This document shows, piece after piece, positions 1 to 11,050 of a stretch of DNA of 11,050 nucleotides (positions within the stretch are counted from its first letter, which is position 1; every line of letters begins with the position of its first letter). The position numbers were made by a program, and so were the translations under genes. The stretch comes from Pseudomonadales bacterium (GTDB taxonomy: Bacteria > Pseudomonadota > Gammaproteobacteria > Pseudomonadales > Litorivicinaceae), in the NCBI GenBank assembly GCA_012269655.1, contig JAAXJV010000246.1, forward strand, positions 1-11,050. The letters are read 5' to 3'. The notes below the pieces were generated by a model. The model made no database searches. It saw only the letters and a list, made by a program, of their open reading frames with translations, and was not told the DNA's origin.

Positions 1-2345
1 TGACTATGGCGCCCAAGACCGAAGCCGATACCGTTCGTACCTTGGGTGAATTGGTCAAAGGTGGGCACCTGCGTAAGGGCGAAAAGCCGGTCTATTGGTG
101 TACAGATTGTGAGTCCGCTTTGGCTGAGGCCGAAGTCGAGTATGCCGACAAAAATAGCTTAAATGTCGATGTGGCCTTTCCGGTACTGGACACGGCTGAC
201 TTGGCTAAACGGATGGGCGCTTCCGAAGCAGATCAAGCCGCGGTGGTTATCTGGACGACGACTCCCTGGACCTTGCCTTCAAACCGTTTTGTCTGCGTGG
301 GTGATTCGCTGGATTATGTGTTGGTGCGAATCGAAAAAGACGGCCCTCGCACACTGGTATTGGCCGAAGGCTTGCTTGAATCCATCCTGACTCGTTGGGA
401 AGTCGAGGGGCATGAAATTTTGGGCCGTTGCTCGGGTCCTGACTTGGTGGGTATCCAGATGCAAGCGCCTTGGGGTGACACGGTGCCAATGTTCGATGGG
501 GATCACGTCACGCTCGAAGCCGGCACGGGCTGTGTTCACTCGGCGCCTGCCTATGGATTGGAAGACTTTATGGTCGGCCAACGTCATGGGATCGAAAATC
601 TGAGCCCGGTGCAGGACAACGGAACCTTCCCTGAGGACTTTCCGGTCGTCGGTGGCATGCATGTGCAGAAGTGTGGCAATCGCGTGGTCGAATACCTGAC
701 TGAAAAGGGCATTTTGGTTCACGCGCACCGCGAGAAGCACAGCTACCCGCATTGCTGGCGCCATAAGAGCCCGGTTATTTACCGTGCCACACCGCAGTGG
801 TTCATCGCCATGAGCGGCAACGGCCTATTGGAAGCGGCTCGTAACGCCGTCGCCAACGAGGTGACCTTTACTCCCCCAACCGGGCAGAACCGTTTGGGTG
901 CGATGTTGGCTGATCGTCCTGACTGGTGTATTTCTCGCCAGCGCAATTGGGGCTCACCCATCACTTTGTTTGTGCATAAGCAGACCCAGGAATTGCATCC
1001 CCGCACCAACGAGTTTTTCGAGCCTATCGCGCAGAAAATTGAAGAGGGCGGTATCAATGCCTGGTTCAGTTTGGATCCGGCCGAGATTCTGGGTGAAGAC
1101 GCTGAACATTACCGTAAGGTGACGGATATTCTCGACGTTTGGTTTGATTCAGGCGTGACGCACGCGTCGGTTCTTGGCCAGCGCGACGACTTAGTGTTCC
1201 CGGCAGACTTGTATCTTGAGGGGTCGGATCAGCACCGTGGTTGGTTCCAGTCCTCGCTTTTGACTTCTTCGGCACTGCATTCTCACGCGCCTTACAAAGG
1301 GGTGCTGACGCATGGCTTTGCGGTGGATCCCAAGGGCCGCAAGATGTCCAAGTCGATCGGTAACGTGATCGCGCCGCAGGAAGTCATGGACAAGCTGGGT
1401 GCCGACGTCCTGCGTTTGTGGATTGCCTCGCAGGACTTCACCAAAGAACTGACTGTCTCAGATGAGATTCTGAAACGGACCAGCGACGGTTATCGCCGTA
1501 TCCGAAATACTTCGCGCTTTATGTTGGCGAACTTGAGTGGTTTTGACCCCGCTGAGGATCGGATCGAGGTCGCCGACATGGTGGCGCTGGATCGTTGGAT
1601 TTTGGCCCGTGCCACCGCACTGCAGGGTGAAATTCGCCAGCATTACATGAACCACGAGTTCTCAAGCGTGACGCAAAAGGTCCTGAACTTCTGCGTGAAC
1701 GAGCTCGGCGGTTTCTATTTGGATATCGTTAAAGATCGCCAGTACACCTGCAAGGCGGACTCGCAGGCGCGTCGCAGCGCGCAGACCGCTTTGTACGATC
1801 TGGTCGAGGCCTTTAGCCGATGGATTGCGCCCATTTTGTCGTTTACCGCTCAAGAAATTTGGCAGGAAATCCCCGGCCCGCGTGAGACCTTTGTGTTTGC
1901 CCAGGATTGGTACGATTTAGACGTCAGTTTTGCGGACGATCTGAACGATCAGTTCTGGAGTGACGTACTGCGGACTCGTGACGCAGTCAACCAAGCCATT
2001 GAGGCTGCCCGAAACAACAAAGAAGTGGGTGGCTCTCTGGAAGCCAACGCCGCTTTGTATGTGGACACGGCTTTGCAAGCCACATTAGCCAAGCTAGGTG
2101 ACGAGTTGCGCTTTACCACCTTGACCAGTGCTGTCAGCGTGGCGCCACTGGATCAGGCACCGGAAAACGCGTTGCGTAACGAAAGCGGCGACATTGCGGT
2201 GGCCGTGAGCAAAATCGAAGACGCCAAGTGCGAGCGCTGCTGGCACCGTGTGCCCGATGTGGGTGCGAATCCCGCTCACCCAGAAATTTGTGGTCGCTGT
2301 GTCGATAACATTGAGGGCGACGGGGAGACCCGCCAGTTCGCATGA
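1..2345 (+). CDS. ileS: Isoleucine--tRNA ligase (IleRS), 5'-truncated by the window edge
   Basis: This is a cytoplasmic class I aminoacyl-tRNA synthetase that charges tRNA-Ile with isoleucine and hydrolyses mischarged valine. The reading frame is open from base 3 and ends at TGA 2343-2345, giving about 780 visible residues. By recalled alignment to E. coli IleRS (938 aa), roughly 155 N-terminal residues, including the HIGH motif, lie upstream. Numbering from the Met at base 6, the CP1 editing domain shows WTTTPWTLPSN (83-93) and GTGCVHSAP (173-181), followed by YGLEDF with the proofreading Asp at 187. The catalytic core has RPDWCISRQRNWG (304-316), DVWFDSG (377-383), EGSDQHRGW (405-413) and the KMSKS loop (446-450, bases 1341-1355). 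The C-terminal zinc ribbon is intact, with Cys 742, 745, 762 and 765. The Met at base 6 is internal, not the start. The stop overlaps lspA by 4 bases. Identification is essentially certain. Confidence 0.98.
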   Translation, partial: TMAPKTEADTVRTLGELVKGGHLRKGEKPVYWCTDCESALAEAEVEYADKNSLNVDVAFPVLDTADLAKRMGASEADQAAVVIWTTTPWTLPSNRFVCVGDSLDYVLVRIEKDGPRTLVLAEGLLESILTRWEVEGHEILGRCSGPDLVGIQMQAPWGDTVPMFDGDHVTLEAGTGCVHSAPAYGLEDFMVGQRHGIENLSPVQDNGTFPEDFPVVGGMHVQKCGNRVVEYLTEKGILVHAHREKHSYPHCWRHKSPVIYRATPQWFIAMSGNGLLEAARNAVANEVTFTPPTGQNRLGAMLADRPDWCISRQRNWGSPITLFVHKQTQELHPRTNEFFEPIAQKIEEGGINAWFSLDPAEILGEDAEHYRKVTDILDVWFDSGVTHASVLGQRDDLVFPADLYLEGSDQHRGWFQSSLLTSSALHSHAPYKGVLTHGFAVDPKGRKMSKSIGNVIAPQEVMDKLGADVLRLWIASQDFTKELTVSDEILKRTSDGYRRIRNTSRFMLANLSGFDPAEDRIEVADMVALDRWILARATALQGEIRQHYMNHEFSSVTQKVLNFCVNELGGFYLDIVKDRQYTCKADSQARRSAQTALYDLVEAFSRWIAPILSFTAQEIWQEIPGPRETFVFAQDWYDLDVSFADDLNDQFWSDVLRTRDAVNQAIEAARNNKEVGGSLEANAALYVDTALQATLAKLGDELRFTTLTSAVSVAPLDQAPENALRNESGDIAVAVSKIEDAKCERCWHRVPDVGANPAHPEICGRCVDNIEGDGETRQFA

Positions 2346-2824
2346 TCCAATCGCAGGTGAAATTAGGCTGGTGGATTGCTGGGGTGGTGTTGATCTTGGA
2401 TCAAGCCTCGAAGTTCGCAATTCTCGCCACCTTTGACACCTATGAGCGATTGAATCTGCTGCCAGTTTTCGATCTGGTGCTGGTGTTTAACACCGGCGCA
2501 GCTTTCAGTTTTTTGGCTGAGTTCGGCGGCGCCCAGCGCTGGATCTTCCTTGCAATCGCCTTACTCGCAGTGGTCCTGATTCACCGTTGGTTAAAGGACG
2601 CTCGACCCTTTGTGGCGATTTCGCTGGGTCTGATCCTGGGCGGCGCGATCGGTAACGGGATTGATCGCGCCTGGCAGGGTGCCGTGACCGATTTCTTGCT
2701 GGTTTATTATCAGGATTGGTACTTTCCAGCCTTTAATTTGGCCGATTGCGCTATCACCTTAGGCGCTATAGGCATGATCATTGACGCATTTCAGGAGTTC
2801 CGCCGTGAACGCACACCAACTTAG
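2342..2824 (+). CDS. lspA: Lipoprotein signal peptidase (signal peptidase II)
   Basis: This inner-membrane aspartyl protease cleaves the signal peptide of diacylglyceryl-modified prolipoproteins after Lgt has acted. It has 160 residues, the usual size. Visible family motifs are DQASK (20-24), FNTGAAFSFL (49-58), the GGAIGNGIDR...VTDF block (100-118) and FNLADCAIT (131-139). Asp117 and Asp135 are 18 residues apart, matching the spacing of the E. coli catalytic dyad (Asp123/Asp141). Hydrophobic stretches around 8-19, 66-81, 91-103 and 137-148 fit the four-helix fold. The ATG overlaps the ileS stop as ATGA. The best purine run, GGGGAG at 2322-2327, is 14 bases upstream, so reinitiation by ribosomes finishing ileS is likely (inference). 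The ileS-lspA pair is a standard gammaproteobacterial arrangement. Confidence 0.98.
   Translation: MIQSQVKLGWWIAGVVLILDQASKFAILATFDTYERLNLLPVFDLVLVFNTGAAFSFLAEFGGAQRWIFLAIALLAVVLIHRWLKDARPFVAISLGLILGGAIGNGIDRAWQGAVTDFLLVYYQDWYFPAFNLADCAITLGAIGMIIDAFQEFRRERTPT
2793..2797 (+). promoter_or_regulatory. Ribosome-binding site that decides the fkpB start
   Basis: AGGAG lies 7 bases upstream of GTG 2805 and inside the end of lspA. It is downstream of the alternative in-frame TTG at 2781, so it supports the GTG start and a 153-residue FkpB. Confidence 0.7.
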
Positions 2825-3266
2825 CATTGGCCCAGACACCCAAGTGACATTGCACTTTGCAATCGAGCTGGAAGACGGCTCGCTGGTGGATTCGACCTTT
2901 GATAAGACCCCGGCCACCTTCATCGTCGGTGACGGCAACCTGTTGCCGGGGTTCGAGCAGGCCTTATTTGGGCTAACGCAGGGGGCAGAGGAACGCTTGT
3001 TGATCAAACCCGAACATGGTTTTGGCCAACCTAACCCAGACAATGTGCAGCGCATGCGCGTTGACGACTTTGATTCAGAAACGGATTTGTCACCGGGTAT
3101 GATGCTGTCTTTCGCCGACGCGAATGGCAGCGAACTGCCTGGCGTTATTGACCGTGTCGAAGGTGACCAAGTTTACGTCGACTTCAACCATCCTCTGGCC
3201 GGTCGTGATTTGTTTTTCAAGGTCTCGATTCTTGCGGTTAATCCGGCGCCCGAGGCGATTCAATGA
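2805..3266 (+). CDS. fkpB: FKBP-type peptidyl-prolyl cis-trans isomerase (FkpB/SlpA)
   Basis: This is a cytoplasmic, SlyD-like prolyl isomerase and chaperone. From GTG 2805 it has 153 residues, close to the 149 of E. coli FkpB. The FKBP half shows [18 protein letters not shown] near the N-terminus and [17 protein letters not shown] around 38-54. The flap/insert region follows ([14 protein letters not shown]), then the returning FKBP strand with the family hallmark [14 protein letters not shown] near the C-terminus. An extended frame begins at TTG 2781, but the strong AGGAG at 2793-2797 sits 7 bases before GTG 2805, and the extra eight residues match no family N-terminus. The gene overlaps lspA by 20 bases and ispH by 4. 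FkpB between lspA and ispH is a conserved gammaproteobacterial order; no functional link to isoprenoid synthesis is evident from the sequence. Confidence 0.95.
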
Positions 3267-4210
3267 AAATTGAGTTGGCTAACCCTAGGGGCTTTTGCGC
3301 GGGCGTAGACCGAGCGATTGAGATTGTTGATCGTGCCATCGACGTGTTCGGTGCGCCGATCTATGTGCGCCACGAAGTGGTGCATAACAAATACGTGGTG
3401 GACGGGCTCAGGGATCGTGGTGCTGTGTTTGTTGAAGAACTTGACGAAGTACCAGACGGCGCCACCGTCATCTTCAGTGCCCATGGTGTCAGCCGTGCCG
3501 TTCAGGACGAAGCCGCTCGTAGAGACCTTAAGGTATTTGATGCAACCTGCCCGCTGGTCACCAAAGTTCACATGGAAGTGGCGCGCTATGCAGCAAAGGG
3601 CATGGAATGCGTTCTGATTGGCCATGAGGGCCACCCCGAGGTGGTCGGAACACTTGGCCGTTATGACGACCGTAACGGGGGCGCCATTTATCTGGTCGAA
3701 ACGCCGGAAGATGCCCGAGCATTAAAACCCAAAGACCCGACGCAGTTGGCCTATGTCACTCAAACTACCTTAAGTATGGATGACACTGCCGATGTGATCG
3801 ATGCGCTGAGGGAAACCTTTGAGCATATTTCCGGACCCAGACGTGATGACATTTGTTATGCCACGCAAAACCGCCAAGATGCGGTGCGGGGCCTGGCCAA
3901 ACATAATGATCTCGTTTTGGTGGTGGGAAGCGTTAACAGTTCAAATTCGAATCGATTGCGCGAGTTGGCCGAGCGCGAGGGTGCGAAGGCCTATTTGTTG
4001 GACCAAGCCAGTGATCTGGATAGTGAGTGGTTCGATGGAGTCTCGTCCGTGGGTGTAACCGCGGGTGCGTCTGCCCCCGAGGTCTTAGTTCAAGGGGTAA
4101 TCGAGCGACTCAAATCCTTGGGTGGCCAGTCTGTCGAAGAACTGGATGGGCGGCCTGAAAACATCACGTTCAACCTGCCCAAAGAACTGCGACTTGTTGA
4201 CGCGGGCTAA
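3263..4210 (+). CDS. ispH: 4-hydroxy-3-methylbut-2-enyl diphosphate reductase (IspH/LytB)
   Basis: This is the terminal enzyme of the MEP pathway. It is an iron-sulfur reductase that converts HMBPP to IPP and DMAPP in the cytoplasm. It has 315 residues (E. coli 316). The three cluster cysteines are present: Cys12 (NPRGFCAGV), Cys96 ([11 protein letters not shown]) and Cys198 (ICYATQNRQ). Substrate-site residues are also present: His41 ([10 protein letters not shown]), His74 (FSAHGVS), His124 and Glu126 (GHEGHPE), Thr168 (VTQTTLS), Ser226/Ser227/Asn228 ([11 protein letters not shown]) and Ser270 (GASAPE). The ATG overlaps the fkpB stop as ATGA. A GAGG at 3252-3255 is 7 bases upstream. It is the last gene of the housekeeping block. 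No convincing terminator follows, so read-through into the pilus operon is possible (inference). Confidence 0.99.
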
Positions 4211-4242
4211 TGTGATGCTGGTCGCAAAACAGGCCTAATCAA

Positions 4243-4272
4243 ACCGTTCGGGAGTCAAAACCGACCGTTCGG
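4243..4272 (+). promoter_or_regulatory. Direct-repeat operator, LytTR/AlgR-type
   Basis: Two identical 9-mers, ACCGTTCGG at 4243-4251 and 4264-4272, are separated by exactly 12 bp, a 21-bp period or about two helical turns. Each fits the published LytTR-domain consensus ([TA][AC][CA]GTTN[AG][TG], direct repeats with 12-13 bp between) at every position. Each also shares CCGTTCG with the Pseudomonas AlgR box CCGTTCGTC. AlgR is known to activate the fimU-pilVWXY1Y2E operon in P. aeruginosa. The pair lies upstream of the homologous operon here, just ahead of a weak promoter-like sequence. Binding by an AlgR-like regulator is inference; no regulator gene is in the window. Confidence 0.65.
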
Positions 4273-4300
4273 ACTAGGTTAACTTCCTAGCCTCGCTAAT
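4272..4300 (+). promoter_or_regulatory. Candidate activator-dependent promoter of the pilus operon
   Basis: GCTAAT at 4295-4300 matches four of six positions of a sigma-70 -10 element. A 17-bp spacer would put the -35 at 4272-4277 (GACTAG), which is poor and touches the downstream ACCGTTCGG repeat. That geometry suits activation from a regulator overlapping the -35. Transcription would start around 4307-4310, giving a leader of about 30 nt. This is tentative: the -10 match is weak and other positions are possible. Confidence 0.3.
4274..4290. repeat. Short inverted repeat in the ispH-fimU gap
   Basis: CTAGG (4274-4278) and CCTAG (4286-4290) flank the 7-base loop TTAACTT. The dyad falls inside the candidate promoter spacer, so it could be an operator. 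Alternatively it is a weak hairpin, with a T5 run only ten bases after it. The stem is short and AT-containing, so neither role is secure. Confidence 0.3.
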
Positions 4301-4310
4301 TTTTCCATGC

Positions 4311-4334
4311 TGACTTCACACCTTTGTGAGGTCA
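4311..4334 (+). promoter_or_regulatory. Leader hairpin covering the fimU Shine-Dalgarno
   Basis: TGACTTCAC (4311-4319) pairs with GTGAGGTCA (4326-4334) around the loop ACCTTT. This gives nine consecutive pairs in RNA, one of them U·G. The 3' arm contains GAGG (4328-4331), the only purine-rich ribosome-binding site spaced properly (6 bases) from ATG 4338. When folded, the site is paired. No U-run follows, so it is not a terminator. The structure is seen by base pairing only; an effect on translation is inference. Confidence 0.55.
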
Positions 4335-4337
4335 GTC

Positions 4338-4859
4338 ATGTCACTACGCCAACACGGATTCACACTACTGGAAAGCATGATCGTGATTGCGATCATGGCC
4401 ATTCTGGTGTCCGTTGCGTTGCCGTCGCTGGTGGATGCCCAGAACTCGAATCGAGTGGACAGTGTGCAGCGAGACCTATTATCAGTAATGAATCAAGGCC
4501 GAACTCAAGCCGTCAACGAAGGTGATCGAATGAGTCTGTGTGGCTCGTCCGATGGCCAGCATTGCGACAACGACTGGAGCGGTTGGGTTTTGTTCCGCGG
4601 AACGCCGCCCGCGGACAGTGAGTCGGCGGTCGACCCCTTATTCGTCGGTTCAGCCGGTAGTGTTCCGATCAAGGCGAGCCAGGCCAGCGTCACTTGGCAA
4701 AGCACAGGTGAGGCGGGCCAAAGCTTAACCCTTGGCCTGTATTGTGACGAACCCAGCTTACGTCGCTCGGTTGAACTGTCCGTCATTGGCCGGGCCGCTG
4801 GCTCTCTCGATGTTGATAAGGATGGTCAGCACACTGTGCATATAGGTGCTTGCTCGTGA
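4338..4859 (+). CDS. fimU: Minor type IV prepilin, GspH/FimT family (FimU-like)
   Basis: This 173-residue minor pilin of the type IV pilus is inserted in the inner membrane, cleaved by PilD and thought to join the initiation/tip complex. It has a 7-residue basic leader ending in Gly, then F-T-L-L-E with the conserved Glu at mature position 5 and a hydrophobic helix (MIVIAIMAILVSVALP). A GspH-type globular domain follows, including the SLCGSSDGQHCDNDWSGW segment characteristic of FimT/FimU. Cysteines near 64, 72, 141 and the C-terminus could form disulfides in the periplasm. The frame extends up to GTG 4326, but ATG 4338 has GAGG at 6-base spacing and gives a normal leader length. It is first in the pilus operon, as fimU is in P. 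aeruginosa, and overlaps pilV as GTGA. Whether it should be named fimU or fimT rests on position rather than sequence. Confidence 0.9.
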   Translation: MSLRQHGFTLLESMIVIAIMAILVSVALPSLVDAQNSNRVDSVQRDLLSVMNQGRTQAVNEGDRMSLCGSSDGQHCDNDWSGWVLFRGTPPADSESAVDPLFVGSAGSVPIKASQASVTWQSTGEAGQSLTLGLYCDEPSLRRSVELSVIGRAAGSLDVDKDGQHTVHIGACS

Positions 4860-5308
4860 AGCGCCACGTGGGTATTGGTCTGATCGAAGTGTTGGTGGCG
4901 CTTCTGATTATCAGCCTAGGTTTGCTGGGCTTTGCCAGTTTACAGGTAGCCAATCTAAACGTGGGGGATACCGCTTGGTCCCGTTCGAGTGCCACTCTAT
5001 TAGCCACTGACCTGTTGGATCGAGCCCGTATCAATCGAACGCAGTATTTAGCCGGAGCTTACGATCATGACTTTGGCGAGGCTGCGCCCAGCACTACCGA
5101 TTGCCGAGCAAACTCATGCACACCCGCTCAATTGAGCCGATTTGATCTCAACCAATGGCTCAATCTGGTTTCAGACTCACTGCCCGACGGCCAGGGTCAG
5201 GTCAGCCGCGATACGTCCATGTCGCCATCGGTCTTGATCGTTCAAGTTCGCTGGTTCGACCGGTTAGAGCAATCCAATCAGACACTCGAATTGAGGGCGC
5301 AGCTATGA
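4856..5308 (+). CDS. pilV: Minor type IV prepilin PilV
   Basis: This 150-residue minor pilin belongs to the PilV/PilI family. The six-residue leader (V/M-K-R-H-V-G) is followed by I-G-L-I-E and the helix VLVALLIISLGLLGFASLQ, typical of PilV. Mature residue 1 is Ile instead of the usual Phe, and Glu5 is kept. Downstream features match the family: a Cys pair (TTDCRANSC), an NQW-x-x-L-V-S-D segment and LPDGQGQVS. The start chosen is GTG 4856, overlapping the fimU stop as GTGA, with AGG at 4844-4846 nine bases before it. TTG at 4850 is in frame but only 3 bases from that AGG. PilV is expected to act with FimU, PilW and PilX beneath PilY1 at the pilus tip. Confidence 0.92.
   Translation: MKRHVGIGLIEVLVALLIISLGLLGFASLQVANLNVGDTAWSRSSATLLATDLLDRARINRTQYLAGAYDHDFGEAAPSTTDCRANSCTPAQLSRFDLNQWLNLVSDSLPDGQGQVSRDTSMSPSVLIVQVRWFDRLEQSNQTLELRAQL
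5293..5297 (+). promoter_or_regulatory. Ribosome-binding site that decides the pilW start
   Basis: GAGGG lies 7 bases before ATG 5305, inside the end of pilV. It supports ATG 5305 over the 50-codon-longer frame opening at 5155, which would bury the prepilin leader inside the protein. Confidence 0.7.
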
Positions 5309-6330
5309 GGCGACTGTCGAAGCGAGTGGCAGGTTTCTCCCTGATCGAGCTGATGATTGCACTGCTCATTGGTAGCCTACTCATGAGTGGTGTGTTCAAT
5401 ATTTTGGTCGGCGCGAAGCAAGCGTATCGGGTGCAGGACGAACTCAGCCGAACTCAGGAAAATGCCCGATTTGCCGCAGACTTTATTGCCCGAGACTTGC
5501 GCATGGCTGGGTTTCGTGGGTGCCGTAGCGGCTTACCGCTCAATTTAATGGTCACCGACGCCGATTCGGATTGGCGCTATAACCTGCTGCGGCCAGTGCA
5601 AGGGTATCAAGGCGTAGCAAACGCCCCGAGCCAGCTTAATGCACCCTTTTCAAATACGCGGCACAACCCCGATTCCGTCGCGGTGTTGACCGTCAATCCA
5701 GACCAAGCCGTCTCCATTCAGTCTGAATCGGACGGCGAATTGATTCTGGTCCACGCACATGACTTTGCTTTGGGTACTACCTTGCTGGCAGCGAATTGCG
5801 ATTTGGGGGCATTGTTTCAGGTGTCTTCAGACAGTACTGGCGAAACCTATGTTAAGCACGAGGTTTCCAGCGACTTGAGCCCGGGAAACTGCACCAATCG
5901 ACTGGGTGGGGACTGTTTAAATCCAGAATTGGCCGGGCTTGATCATGGTGGCGTCGTGATGCCGCTTACCGCCCGTGCCTACTATTTGTCGACCGATATA
6001 AATGGCGTGCCAGGTCTTTATCGAGCTGAGCTCGGGGCGAATGGAACCTTGAATCCTGAAGAGCTGGTGCCTGGGGTAGAGGACTTCCGACTGTATTTCG
6101 GCATTGATACCGATGCCGACCAGGTTCCAAACCAATATTTAAGGGCTGGGGATTCAGGCTTCGATCCAGATCAGGCGATCAGTGTGCAGATTCACTTCTT
6201 ATTGCGGACCTTGATCGAGCCAGATACTCAGCCAAAGCCCTACACCTTTGACGGAATGGCCTTTACACCCGACGACGGACATGTTCGCCGCGAGATTGCC
6301 CTGACCATCGGGCTAAGGAACCGCCTATGA
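5305..6330 (+). CDS. pilW: Minor type IV prepilin PilW
   Basis: This 341-residue minor pilin of the PilW family has a ten-residue basic leader ending at Gly10. It continues F-S-L-I-E (Glu5 kept) and a hydrophobic helix through about residue 36. Family signatures follow in order: SRTQENARFAADFIARDLRMAGFRGC (48-73), an ANCDLGALFQV strand segment (163-173), a Cys pair at 196 and 204, and ELVPGVEDFRLYFGIDTDADQVPNQYL (253-279). The last of these is the conserved PilW segment before the C-terminal strands. DTDADQ could be a cation-binding turn (inference). The frame continues upstream through the end of pilV, but ATG 5305 overlaps the pilV stop as ATGA, has GAGGG 7 bases ahead, and restores the prepilin leader. 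It is expected to be secreted across the inner membrane, processed by PilD and joined to the tip complex. Confidence 0.95.
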   Translation: MRRLSKRVAGFSLIELMIALLIGSLLMSGVFNILVGAKQAYRVQDELSRTQENARFAADFIARDLRMAGFRGCRSGLPLNLMVTDADSDWRYNLLRPVQGYQGVANAPSQLNAPFSNTRHNPDSVAVLTVNPDQAVSIQSESDGELILVHAHDFALGTTLLAANCDLGALFQVSSDSTGETYVKHEVSSDLSPGNCTNRLGGDCLNPELAGLDHGGVVMPLTARAYYLSTDINGVPGLYRAELGANGTLNPEELVPGVEDFRLYFGIDTDADQVPNQYLRAGDSGFDPDQAISVQIHFLLRTLIEPDTQPKPYTFDGMAFTPDDGHVRREIALTIGLRNRL

Positions 6331-6944
6331 CTCGCGAGCGCGGCAGTATTTTGATCGTGAGTTTGGGCCTGTTGGCCATCTTGACGCTGATCGGTCTGTC
6401 TGGTGCCAACACCACGACATTAGAAGAGCGCATGTCGGGTAATTTCCGAGATCAGCAAGTCGCATTTCAATCGGCCGAGGCCGTCCTCGCGGATGCGGAA
6501 TCTTGGATCGAGGCGAACGATCTCGCGACAATCACCGGCCCCGATACGGCCTGCATTTCGGGCCAGTGCTTCGACAGCAACTGCAGTAATGGTTTGTGTT
6601 TCAACGGCACGCAGGCCAACACTTATGGACAGTGTCAGCATGTCGAGCCGCAATCCCCTGTGTGGGCGCGAGACAACGCCTTGGATGTGTTCAACACCCC
6701 TTCGCGTTATCGCACGGCTAGTCAGAATTCTGAACTGGATGGCTCACAGGGTGGCGGCCGTTACATCGTCGAGTTTCTGTGTTTTATGCGCCTGGATCCT
6801 GAACAACCCGAGTCGGCCGCGTTGCACGGCTCTTCTGCATTTTTTCGCGACTACGCCGAGGTCTATCGGATTACGGCGATGGGATTTGGGGCCACCCCCA
6901 ACGCGCGCAGTGTCGTTCAATCCACTTACAGGAAGGTTCGATGA
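6327..6944 (+). CDS. pilX: Minor type IV pilin PilX (GspK-like)
   Basis: This 205-residue PilX-family minor pilin starts with leader MTRERG and mature S-I-L-I-V. It therefore lacks the Glu at position 5 that the other three prepilins in this operon carry. Absence of Glu5 is a known trait of the tip-most pseudopilin GspK, to which PilX is compared, so this fits a tip position. The family block TTTLEERMSGNFRDQQVAFQSAEAVLADAE (29-58) is clear. Residues 76-91 hold four cysteines at exact five-residue steps (C76, C81, C86, C91), with further cysteines at 103 and 152. ATG 6327 overlaps the pilW stop as ATGA and has AAGGA at 6315-6319. The C-terminus (YRITAMGFGAT...VVQSTYRKVR) is the usual PilX ending and overlaps pilY1. 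Confidence 0.92.
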   Translation: MTRERGSILIVSLGLLAILTLIGLSGANTTTLEERMSGNFRDQQVAFQSAEAVLADAESWIEANDLATITGPDTACISGQCFDSNCSNGLCFNGTQANTYGQCQHVEPQSPVWARDNALDVFNTPSRYRTASQNSELDGSQGGGRYIVEFLCFMRLDPEQPESAALHGSSAFFRDYAEVYRITAMGFGATPNARSVVQSTYRKVR

Positions 6945-9900
6945 TGAAACATAGGTTTTGGTTACTGGCCGGACTGTTCAGTACTGCGGCAGGGGCGGTT
7001 AACACCAGTGCGGACTATCGTGCGTTGCCGGCCGTATTAAGCGGCGCGGGGACCCCGATCGTGATGCTGGCAATGAGTCAAGACCACCAGCTCTTTTACA
7101 AGGCGTATACCGATTGGGATGACTTAGACGGTGATGAGCTTGCGCAGGCCGAAACCACGTATACTCACAGTGTTGAATATTTTGGCTACTTTGATCCGGA
7201 CAAGTGTTACGTCTATGACGAAGTTGATGAAGTGTTCCGGCCCGATGCCGTCACCACAGACCGCTACTGTAACGGTGTCGGTGCATCCGATCAGTGGTCG
7301 GGCAACTTTTTGAATTGGGCCACCACCACCCGAATCGATGCGGTCAGAAAAATCCTGTATGGCGGCAGCCGAGTCGCCAAGCAATCGAACGGTGATTGGA
7401 CGCTTGAGCATCAATGGCCATCGGATCAAGACTTACCTAATGAAACCATTCTAGAACGGGCTTACCTGCCCAACGACGCGCACAGTTTTGCCAAATATTA
7501 TTCCGGGCAAGACTTGGGTGGCGGTCTCAACGATATTGCTCGCTTAACGCCCTTTTCCCCTGCATTAAGCGGTGATGCCAGTGAAGTGGGCGTGACGCTA
7601 TGCAATACCACTCGACAAGGGTCAGGCTTCTCGCAAAACGCGACCGCGGGTCCTCGCTTTGCAGTGGCTCGGGGTAATCACAGTTTATGGAATGCCAATG
7701 AGCGCTGGCAGTGCTTGTGGTCGAACGAAAAGAGTGCGAGTAACGGCAATAACGCATCAGTCAGCGGGATTGATGCGAGCTCATCCAACCCTTCTTTGAA
7801 TGACCATTCGACAAATGACAATTTTACGGTTCGGGTCGAAGTCTGTGATCCATTGCTGTTGGGTAGCGAACGCTGCAAGCAATATCCCGACGGCACCTAT
7901 AAGCCAGTGGGGTTGTTACAAGAGTATGGCGATGACGATCGTGTTTGGTTTGGGTTGTTAACCGGTAGCTACCGGGCCAACAAATCCGGCGGCGTGTTGC
8001 GTAAGAATCCGGGTTCGCTGGCTGACGAGATTGATGTCGGCGGGTCAGGTCGGTTTTTGTCCTCACCTAGTGCCGGTAGCATCGTGACCACGCTCGATGC
8101 CATGCGGCCCTACGGTTACAACCAAGAGATTGGTTATTACAACGACAGCACTAACGACAACTGCAAATGGGGACTCAACAGCTTTACTAACGACCGGTGT
8201 CGTAACTGGGGTAACCCGTTGTCTGAAATTGTTCTGGAGTGTTATCGCTATTTGGCCGGCGCCCAGCCCAATCCTAATTTCACGGCCCGGGACGATCTGT
8301 TGCCCAATTTATCTGCCGATAGCCCATTAAAAAATCTGGTCAGTGCCAGTTGGGCAGATCCCCTAACCGAATCTAACGCCTGTGCCAATCTCAATGTCAT
8401 CGCCTTTAACGCGTCTACCAGTTCGTACGATACAGACGAGCTGTCTGGGGTCAGCGATCTCAACACCTCTCAATCTGCCGATCAATTGACCGATGTGGTG
8501 GGTGCGGGCGAGGGCATACATGGTCAACAAGCCTTTGTCGGCCGGGTCAATGGCGATACGGACGAACTGTGCACGCCGAAAACCATTTTCGCGTTGAGTG
8601 AAGTGGAGGGCACCTGCCCGGATGCGCCGCGACTGGAAGGGGGTTATCAGGTGGCGGGCCTCGCTCATCATGTGAGCCAAACCGATATCCGGCCGGATAT
8701 CGACGGCGTTCAGTCAATTACCACTTATGGAGTGGCCCTAACGCCGACTTTACCCAAGGTCCAGATCCCCGTGCCTGAAAGCAGTCCCCAGCAGTTCGTG
8801 ACGATATTACCTGCGTGTTACAACGATTCAGTCGGTGGAAACTGCGGCTTGGTGGATTTCAAAATTACCCAGGCATTCAGCGAATCTGGAGGGATCGGCA
8901 GCGGCGCGTTTTACGTGAACTGGGAAGATTCAGAACAGGGCGGTGACTATGACCAGGACATGTCGGGTGTTCTGACGTACCAGATCGATAAAGACAGCAT
9001 TACCGTGACTACCAATGTCTTTGCCGAGTCCACGCCTTACAAAATGGGATTTGGTTTTGTGATCAGTGGCACGACCAAGGACGGCTTCCATGCGTATAGC
9101 GGCATTGAAGGGTTTAGCTGGACAAATCCGACAGGAGCGACTGGATGTAGCAGTTGCCAGCGATCGGACTCGGCAGAAAGCTATGCCTTTGATCTCGGGT
9201 CGAATACTGCGCAACTACTGGAACAGCCACTTTATTACGCCGCGAAATGGGGAGGGTTTAGTGACTCAGATGGGGATGGAACCCCCAATTTGGTGCCCGA
9301 ATGGGACCGCAAAGACAATTCAACCGGCGCCTTTGCACCAGACGGTATTCCCGATAACTACTTTCTAGCAATCGATCCCGCACAATTGAACGCTCAACTG
9401 GCCTTGGTGCTGGAAGACATCATTAACCGCACTGCAGCCGGAACCGGCGGGGCGGTGGTGGCCAATTCAGTCAGCGGACTGGGTGCGGTCTATCAAGCGC
9501 TGTATCAGCCACAGTACAAGTCCGGTGAAGACTCAGTGGATTGGGTCGGGTTAGTTCACGCACTGTTTATCGACGATAACGGGCTGTTACGGGAAGACAG
9601 CGATCAGGATGGCCAACTGGATGGATACGCGGTCGACTACGTGGTTGATGTCAGTTACGACGAGCTGAGCGACACCACCCTGGTGACTCGCTTTACCAGT
9701 GCAGACGGCGGCGCAACGCTATCACAGGTCGGTGACCCTGTGCCGCTCGATCAGTTGCTACCGATTTGGAATGCCAGAGACGAGCTGGCGCGAGTGGTTG
9801 ATGTTCAAAACCAGCGCGATTACACCGTCAATGCTCAGACTCGTCGTCATATTTTAACCAGTTCGGGGCCGGGTGCTGACGGCCGAATCAGCCAAGCGCA

Positions 9901-11050
9901 GGTGGTCGATTTTCTTCCCTCAACTTTTTCGGCGAGTGCCGCGTTACAGCGGGCTTTGAATTTACCCGCAGGCATCGATCAGACTCATCTTATTCATTGG
10001 GTTCGCGGCGAGGATCAGTCGAATTTCCGCTCAAGGACGGTCGATTTTCTCGACGATCCAGGTGATGAAGTCTGGCGGCTGGGCGATGTGATTCATTCAA
10101 CTCCAACCCCGGTCGGTGCGCCGCAGGCGGGTGATGATGCCTTGTACGGGGATGTCAGCTATCAGGCATTTAAATCCCAATACGCAGAACGCCGCACAGT
10201 GGTTTATGTCGGTGCCAACGACGGCATGCTGCATGCCTTCAACGGTGGATTCTGGAATGAGTCCACTCAGAGTTTTTCAGTTGTGTCACCGGACGGCAAC
10301 GCGACTGAGCACCCACTAGGCAGTGAGTTATGGGCCTATGTTCCCTTTAATCTGTTGTCTCATCTTAAGTGGCTGGTGGAAGAAGATTATCCCCATGTGT
10401 ATTACGTGGATGGCCCGCCCAAGGTGTTTGATGCGCGAATCTTTAATGAAAACGATATCGATCACCCTGGTGGCTGGGGCACCGTTTTGGCCGTCACGAT
10501 GCGGTTCGGAGGCGGTGCTTACTATGTCGATTGGGATGGTGTATCTGGCAATGGACCAAGCGGATCGGATGCCGAGATGCGCATGCGCTCCAGTTTGGTG
10601 TTGTTTGATGTGACTAATCCCGAGCAACCGCCTCAACTCATGGCAGAGCTAACCGATGACCAGTTGGGTGACTTCTTTTTTACGACCAGTCAGCCGGCTT
10701 TAATTCGCAATCATCAGGCGGGCACAGGCGCGGACTGGGAAAACCCCGCGACCAATGATTGGTCCCTGGTGTTTGGTGCAGGTCCCAATAGCTTGAGTGC
10801 CGCAACCACCTCCAGTGCGGCACAGGTGTTTGTTCTGGATTTGGGAACATTGGACTTTAAGTTGGGCTATGCCCCGCAAGTCCTGGCGGATGAAACCGAG
10901 ACCTTTGCGGGTAATTTCACCGCTGTGGATTGGACGCTGAATGGTGCAACCGATGCCGTCTATTTCGGTTTGGCCGGGGGCGATGCCTTGACGCCGTCGG
11001 GCGGCGTTCAACGTTTGTCGATTGATGAAGCAGGCGACATGGCATTAAGC
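6941..11050 (+). CDS. pilY1: PilY1/PilC-type pilus tip adhesin and assembly factor, 3'-truncated
   Basis: This is a large exported protein at the type IV pilus tip, involved in assembly, retraction control and adhesion in relatives. The frame is open from ATG 6941 to the window end: 1370 codons with no stop, already longer than P. aeruginosa PilY1 (about 1160). A Sec signal peptide is visible (basic MMKHR, then FWLLAGLFSTAAGA, likely cut after Ala19). N-terminal family segments include QDHQLFYKAYTDWDDLDGD (47-65) and NFLNWATTTRIDAVRKILYGG (122-142). No MIDAS-type DxSxS follows a hydrophobic strand there. GYQVAGLAHH and DIRPD occur mid-protein. Two Asp-rich loops follow: DSDGDG (775-780) and an EF-hand-like DSDQDGQLD (886-894), the latter placed like the PilY1 calcium site. 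The C-terminal beta-propeller begins near WRLGDVIHSTP (~1045) with VVYVGANDGMLHAFN (1087-1101) and is cut by the window. ATG 6944 is an equally plausible start. Confidence 0.95.
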   Translation, partial: MMKHRFWLLAGLFSTAAGAVNTSADYRALPAVLSGAGTPIVMLAMSQDHQLFYKAYTDWDDLDGDELAQAETTYTHSVEYFGYFDPDKCYVYDEVDEVFRPDAVTTDRYCNGVGASDQWSGNFLNWATTTRIDAVRKILYGGSRVAKQSNGDWTLEHQWPSDQDLPNETILERAYLPNDAHSFAKYYSGQDLGGGLNDIARLTPFSPALSGDASEVGVTLCNTTRQGSGFSQNATAGPRFAVARGNHSLWNANERWQCLWSNEKSASNGNNASVSGIDASSSNPSLNDHSTNDNFTVRVEVCDPLLLGSERCKQYPDGTYKPVGLLQEYGDDDRVWFGLLTGSYRANKSGGVLRKNPGSLADEIDVGGSGRFLSSPSAGSIVTTLDAMRPYGYNQEIGYYNDSTNDNCKWGLNSFTNDRCRNWGNPLSEIVLECYRYLAGAQPNPNFTARDDLLPNLSADSPLKNLVSASWADPLTESNACANLNVIAFNASTSSYDTDELSGVSDLNTSQSADQLTDVVGAGEGIHGQQAFVGRVNGDTDELCTPKTIFALSEVEGTCPDAPRLEGGYQVAGLAHHVSQTDIRPDIDGVQSITTYGVALTPTLPKVQIPVPESSPQQFVTILPACYNDSVGGNCGLVDFKITQAFSESGGIGSGAFYVNWEDSEQGGDYDQDMSGVLTYQIDKDSITVTTNVFAESTPYKMGFGFVISGTTKDGFHAYSGIEGFSWTNPTGATGCSSCQRSDSAESYAFDLGSNTAQLLEQPLYYAAKWGGFSDSDGDGTPNLVPEWDRKDNSTGAFAPDGIPDNYFLAIDPAQLNAQLALVLEDIINRTAAGTGGAVVANSVSGLGAVYQALYQPQYKSGEDSVDWVGLVHALFIDDNGLLREDSDQDGQLDGYAVDYVVDVSYDELSDTTLVTRFTSADGGATLSQVGDPVPLDQLLPIWNARDELARVVDVQNQRDYTVNAQTRRHILTSSGPGADGRISQAQVVDFLPSTFSASAALQRALNLPAGIDQTHLIHWVRGEDQSNFRSRTVDFLDDPGDEVWRLGDVIHSTPTPVGAPQAGDDALYGDVSYQAFKSQYAERRTVVYVGANDGMLHAFNGGFWNESTQSFSVVSPDGNATEHPLGSELWAYVPFNLLSHLKWLVEEDYPHVYYVDGPPKVFDARIFNENDIDHPGGWGTVLAVTMRFGGGAYYVDWDGVSGNGPSGSDAEMRMRSSLVLFDVTNPEQPPQLMAELTDDQLGDFFFTTSQPALIRNHQAGTGADWENPATNDWSLVFGAGPNSLSAATTSSAAQVFVLDLGTLDFKLGYAPQVLADETETFAGNFTAVDWTLNGATDAVYFGLAGGDALTPSGGVQRLSIDEAGDMALS
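8683..8702. repeat. Perfect 20-bp palindrome inside pilY1
   Basis: CGATATCCGG at 8683-8692 is followed directly by its exact reverse complement CCGGATATCG at 8693-8702. In frame it encodes the conserved D-I-R-P-D-I segment of PilY1, whose near-symmetric protein sequence partly explains the symmetry. No function is claimed. Confidence 0.5.

Follow-up and report, generated by a model that had tools for sequence, protein, structure and literature searches.

Gene organization and the tandem repeat before fimU

The window, that is, the whole 11,050-nucleotide stretch of DNA that was analysed, contains ileS, lspA, a gene for an FKBP-type isomerase and ispH upstream of a short intergenic gap, and fimU, pilV, pilW, pilX and pilY1 downstream of it, all on the + strand. 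A gap of 127 bp separates the ispH stop (4210) from the likely fimU ATG (4338) and harbors two exact copies of ACCGTTCGG, at 4243-4251 and 4264-4272, which are separated by a 12-bp spacer and thus repeat with a period of 21. The features concerned are as follows.

3263..4210, + strand: ispH (LytB), open reading frame; Pfam PF02401, E 1.7e-96
4243..4251, + strand: upstream putative LytTR/AlgR-type half-site ACCGTTCGG; counterparts ACCGTTAAA in genome G024 and TCCGTTCGG in genome G023, at the same place
4252..4263, + strand: spacer GAGTCAAAACCG, 12 bp; same length in all three genomes of the genus compared
4264..4272, + strand: downstream putative LytTR/AlgR-type half-site ACCGTTCGG; GACCGTTCG invariant in the three same-genus gaps
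4327..4331, + strand: probable ribosome-binding site TGAGG, inside an invariant TGTGAGG block of the three-way alignment
4338..4859, + strand: fimU-like minor prepilin gene; PF07963 and PF12019 (GspH), both above cut-off
4850..5308, + strand: pilV-like minor prepilin gene; PF22150 (Tt1218-like), E 5.8e-6, 26.7 bits (cut-off 27), and position
5305..6330, + strand: pilW; PF16074, E 2.4e-18
6327..6944, + strand: pilX; PF14341 and PF13681, both above cut-off
6941..11050, + strand: pilY1, open at the window end; PF05567, E 3.9e-8, open reading frame

The genes downstream of the gap follow the minor-pilin order fimU-pilV-pilW-pilX-pilY1, in which pilV is the weakest assignment. The first-pass annotation had reported two identical 9-mers with a 12-bp spacer in a 127-bp gap before fimU, and both the exact copies and their coordinates are confirmed here; the AlgR core CCGTTCG that it ascribed to the half-sites is likewise present in ACCGTTCGG. 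It had also placed the repeat against a poor -35 element, but our scan of positions 4150-4400 recognized neither a sigma-70-like promoter, with no -35/-10 elements found, nor a terminator. By the published definition, a LytTR-type tandem operator consists of two imperfect direct repeats, each 8-13 bp long, with a spacing of about 12 bp (PMC4064291, in excerpt), and the present repeat agrees with it in geometry.

The full repeat pattern, which was chosen post hoc, occurs once in the window when up to three mismatches are allowed, compared with 0.01 expected from shuffles. Exact 9-mer direct repeats with periods of 9-40 number three in the whole window; 150 first-order Markov simulations gave 1.7 on average, and a 9-mer repeat of such a kind is accordingly ordinary for 11 kb. 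Within the 127-bp gap, an exact 9-mer repeat arose at period 21 in eight of 20000 simulations and at any period from 9 to 40 in 50 of 4000. Taken by itself, the repeat is mildly unusual and suggestive only; it becomes convincing because it is conserved in relatives.

Conservation within the genus

Our sample of the genus comprises three genomes, namely G000 (the source of the window, with an assembly that is 78% complete and consists of 310 contigs), G023 and G024. In both G023 and G024 ispH is followed by a prepilin gene, and the intervening gap contains two half-sites 21 nt apart, TCCGTTCGG-12-ACCGTTCGT in G023 and ACCGTTAAA-12-ACCGTTCGT in G024; the tandem starts 32-33 bases past the ispH stop in these two genomes and the window alike. 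Conservation in relatives, which the first-pass annotation had proposed as a check, is therefore borne out for both half-sites and for the 21-nt period. Three-way alignment of the gaps revealed invariant blocks consisting of GACCGTTCG (the second half-site, 9 nt), TGTGAGG (7 nt, preceding the start codon) and CCGTT (in the first half-site). TGTGA right behind the ispH stop (window positions 4211-4215) is also invariant across the three same-genus gaps.

Searching the whole genomes for CCGTT-N16-CCGTTCG yielded one perfect match each in G000, G023 and G024, always in the ispH-fimU gap. This pattern was shaped on the three known sites, and its informative part is thus the uniqueness of the perfect match. 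When up to one mismatch was allowed, 10, 16 and 10 matches were found in G000, G023 and G024, respectively, versus 21, 47 and 33 for the reversed control; these raw counts show no enrichment and were rejected as support, only the perfect matches being informative. Of the 33 one-mismatch matches, 27 were inspected (the other six had no locus and were left out), and 24 of them lie within open reading frames of at least 100 amino acids; of the three outside such frames, one is followed within 300 bases by an open frame. A strong site is perhaps confined to one operon, and there may be weaker ones elsewhere.

G000 carries a second prepilin-like cluster around a second PilW match (L278, positions 1-5260, on contig C174), with a long open reading frame in the place of pilY1. 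No comparable pair was found upstream of this cluster, the two best pairs of the 1-kb stretch being inside its fimU-like gene.

Scan of fimU upstream regions across the order

The order is probably Pseudomonadales in the GTDB sense, judging by the IspH neighbors and by one of its members whose AlgR resembles that of Pseudomonas. Of its 194 genomes, 147 yielded a PilW match, and 100 pilW stretches were hand-picked among the matches listed. A first scan of the whole stretches gave a count of 27 at period 21 versus 7 to 22 at the other periods from 10 to 40 at score 11, and six at period 21, equalled by periods 29 and 33, at score 12. This modest peak led to a restricted scan covering the 420 bases before the prepilin motif in the 75 stretches (70 genomes, 25 families) with a fimU-like prepilin before pilW; the remaining 25 stretches, with none in the set range, were dropped.

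A matrix set by hand after the first whole-stretch scan recovered pairs at period 21 in 27 of the 75 regions and 16 of the 25 families, compared with means of 7.7 regions (maximum 14) and 6.1 families (maximum 11) at other periods; 48 regions fell below its threshold of 12. The test was repeated with the published AlgR box CCGTTCGTC (PMC4064291, in excerpt) alone, and pairs with at least 14 of 18 matches were found at period 21 in 13 of the 75 regions; the 51 other periods averaged 0.65 regions and reached three at most. With the same box at score 13, period 20 came second (12 regions versus 18 at period 21), and on the reverse strand there was a period-21 excess at score 12 (14 versus a mean of 4.9) that was absent at 13. 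At score 12 of the hand-set matrix, pairs occurred in 27 of 70 regions from genomes with a LytTR gene and in none of five from genomes without one, a difference based on numbers too small to count. The order-wide 21-nt peak can serve as a working definition of the fimU operator, although AlgR sites at large have been described as not necessarily tandem (PMC4064291, in excerpt).

An Oleiphilaceae gap (L016) contains ACCGCTTAC-12-ACCGTTCGT. No pair above background was found in the ispH-prepilin gaps of Halomonas, Aeromonas and others, where the prepilins may not be fimU, and the pair in the L020 gap of Marinobacter, which is weak (11 of 16), was discarded as not above background.

The LytTR regulator gene

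G000 contains one LytTR-domain match, a protein of 234 amino acids from its likely start with a C-terminal LytTR domain (PF04397, E 6.5e-12), encoded between argH (on the opposite strand) and hemC, which is the place of algR. A LytTR-domain protein of the kind that the first-pass annotation had proposed to look for is thus encoded in the genome. G023 has two LytTR genes, one of them between argH and hemC, and in G024 a LytTR gene fragment adjoins hemC at a contig end that leaves the hemC side alone visible. Twelve homologues were found. The main split in a tree of LytTR domains (97/99) places the clade with the AlgRs, but outside the hemC-linked ones and on long branches, and for that reason the case for AlgR orthology is based mainly on gene order. 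A search for an operator ahead of the regulator's own gene found none, the best score being 11.0 as compared with 15.0 for the fimU gap.

The second LytTR protein of G023 (contig C92, L112, positions 1027-1758) has 243 amino acids, carries hydrophobic N-terminal segments in the receiver's stead and is present in G023 only among the three genus genomes. On contig C271 of G000, the hemC stretch is duplicated in tandem with 99.5% identity (L282, positions 3876-5460) and argH contains unreadable codons (X), probably an artefact of assembly. In the sister genus g2, LytTR was found in none of 22 genomes and PilW in one of the 22; this sole PilW-bearing genome (G012, contig C242, L281) has two prepilin-like clusters and no LytTR match, and contamination is possible.

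A predicted receiver domain without the phosphorylation residues

Members of the clade were aligned against nine AlgRs of the order that are linked to hemC and come from a set of 30 loci (P0007 and P0009 were left out). The phosphoacceptor Asp is kept in all nine hemC-linked AlgRs, whereas S stands at the corresponding position in G023, N in P0011, and P in the G000 protein as well as in P0001-P0005 and P0010. All nine clade rows (G000, G023, P0001-P0005, P0010 and P0011) have EA or EP as the acidic pair; in the G000 protein one Asp of the pair is replaced by A. The conserved Lys is W in the G000 protein and T in P0011, and is retained in G023 and P0010. In P0012, a homologue at greater distance (31% identity), the receiver is intact.

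A Pfam search found no PF00072 receiver in the G000 protein at E <= 10. AlphaFold modelling of P0001, which is 95% identical to the G000 protein and was modelled with nine relatives including P0012, gave five beta-alpha repeats followed by the LytTR domain (mean pLDDT 83, pTM 0.64). A Foldseek search with this model retrieved receiver domains and the LytTR domains of AgrA, and the best E-value belonged to ComE (TM 0.38). The strong receiver matches of profile A1 were not accepted as proof, because A1, from which the fold model was also built, contained the intact receiver of P0012; the best natural receiver match of profile A4, made without P0012, has an E-value of 0.01. The assignment of a receiver is accordingly based on the alignment and on the model, in which the N-terminal half of the close homologue P0001 is predicted to fold as a receiver.

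The AlgZ/FimS kinase

An AlgZ/FimS-type kinase (PF06580) was found in none of 25 genomes of the family, G000 included, in a search that covered the PF06580 type and detected such kinases in 141 of 194 genomes of the order. In G000 and G023 argH and the regulator gene are neighbors and leave no space for an intervening kinase gene. The kinase for which the first-pass annotation had proposed a search was thus not found. Its operator reading is supported by the conserved tandem and the LytTR gene; the two-component scheme of AlgR with FimS does not carry over, because no PF06580 kinase was found and the receiver is without its phosphoacceptor.

Comparison of the order-wide lists gave six genomes with LytTR and without PF06580 (G000, G065, G101, G166, G183 and G204). 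The receivers of G065 and G101 are intact, and kinase loss is therefore separable from loss of the phosphorylation site. G065 and G101 (L286 and L287) belong to another family of the order, with algR between argH and hemC and no PF06580 found in the genome; their lack of AlgZ is probably a separate loss.

Interpretation and alternatives

The computation supports a conserved operator, a regulator in the algR place and a missing kinase together with missing phosphorylation residues. An AlgR-type regulator very probably docks at the 9-mer pair. In the likeliest arrangement the tandem would be occupied by two LytTR domains, which would activate fimU; that the effect is activation is suggested by the situation in P. 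aeruginosa (PMC8787478 and PMC4064291, both in excerpt). We consider, with a probability of roughly 0.8, that a phosphorylation-independent descendant of AlgR, bound as a tandem dimer, activates mainly the minor-pilin operon. We also lean, with some reserve, towards an AlgR descendant without kinase or phosphorylation site for which the ancestral fimU operator is nearly the sole strong target. Binding, activation as opposed to repression, freedom from phospho-control and the nature of the input signal are what we infer from these data. The regulator of the genus, which belongs to a lineage with small genomes, would deliver its output without the usual phosphorelay and, with the phosphoacceptor lost and AlgZ/FimS not found, that output may be set by the amount of the protein, by dimerization of the pseudo-receiver or by a ligand or partner.

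That the repeat arose by chance in an intergenic gap is very improbable: although about 1.7 exact 9-mer repeats with periods of 9-40 are expected in a window of this size, two relatives have kept both half-sites and their exact period in gaps that have otherwise diverged, and none of the three genomes has a second perfect match. It is quite unlikely that the tandem serves some other DNA-binding protein and resembles the AlgR box by coincidence. Direct repeats two turns apart would suit other activators too, but the half-site has the AlgR core CCGTTCG, the spacing is that of LytTR operators (PMC4064291, in excerpt), the order-wide period-21 peak was obtained with the AlgR box itself, and the one LytTR gene found stands in the algR place.

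An unlikely alternative of another kind accepts both the AlgR-type operator and the LytTR protein and supposes that phosphate or a similar signal arrives at another residue from an unrelated kinase, so that the system would still be of two components. The Lys position retained in G023 and P0010 is in its favor, as is the scope of the kinase search, which covered the PF06580 type. Against it are the P, N or S at the phosphoacceptor position and the broken acidic pair in all nine clade rows, and the argH gene directly beside the regulator gene in G000 and G023, where no space is left for a kinase.

Comparison with known systems

No description of the present arrangement was found in the open-licence literature on AlgR, LytTR and fimU, as covered by the listed titles and openings of abstracts, and no paper on an AlgR with a pseudo-receiver was found in open-licence literature. 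Orphan response regulators with pseudo-receiver domains, such as ChxR and FrzS, have output domains that are not LytTR. The regulator of the genus resembles this class in having a receiver fold minus the phosphorylation residues, and differs from it in the output domain. AgrA and ComE, which are LytTR regulators, have working receivers. Regulators of the AgrA/ComE type bind tandem direct repeats about 12 bp apart, as here (PMC4064291, in excerpt), and the predicted fold of P0001 matches ComE and the LytTR domains of AgrA, but their target genes are different and they belong to phyla other than that of the window's regulator. Phosphorylation-independent activation by ComE of Streptococcus mutans, also a LytTR regulator, was the subject of a paper in 2025 (PMC12323615, in excerpt).

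The closest known system is FimS/AlgZ-AlgR of P. aeruginosa, which shares with the window the operon type (fimU-pilVWXY1Y2E) and the core of the half-site. There, fimU-ABS1 is CCGTTTGGC and ABS2 is CCCTCGGGC (PMC4064291, in excerpt); the window differs in having a clean period-21 tandem in which both sites are near-perfect. In P. aeruginosa algZR and hemCD are cotranscribed (PMC5790918, in excerpt), and a LytTR regulator beside hemC is common to the genus and to the AlgR of that species. Strong binding of P. aeruginosa AlgR to the fimU promoter depends on its phosphorylation (PMC8787478, in excerpt), and a non-phosphorylatable AlgR on a fimU operon is therefore unexpected. On the other hand, overexpressed AlgR D54A gave 25% complementation of twitching (PMC5979040, in excerpt), and the need for AlgR phosphorylation at the minor-pilin operon is debated, the two papers differing in the excerpts cited. 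The feedback of minor pilins through FimS that has been proposed (PMC5979040, in excerpt) could not run in its known form in a genus without AlgZ/FimS. The genus resembles an experiment of nature that took away the phospho-input and left the operator in place; if so, a two-component system has shrunk to a dedicated, phosphorylation-free switch of the pilus tip. In P. aeruginosa phosphorylation is required for strong binding (PMC8787478, in excerpt), whereas in the present genus no AlgZ/FimS was found and the receiver is without a phosphoacceptor.
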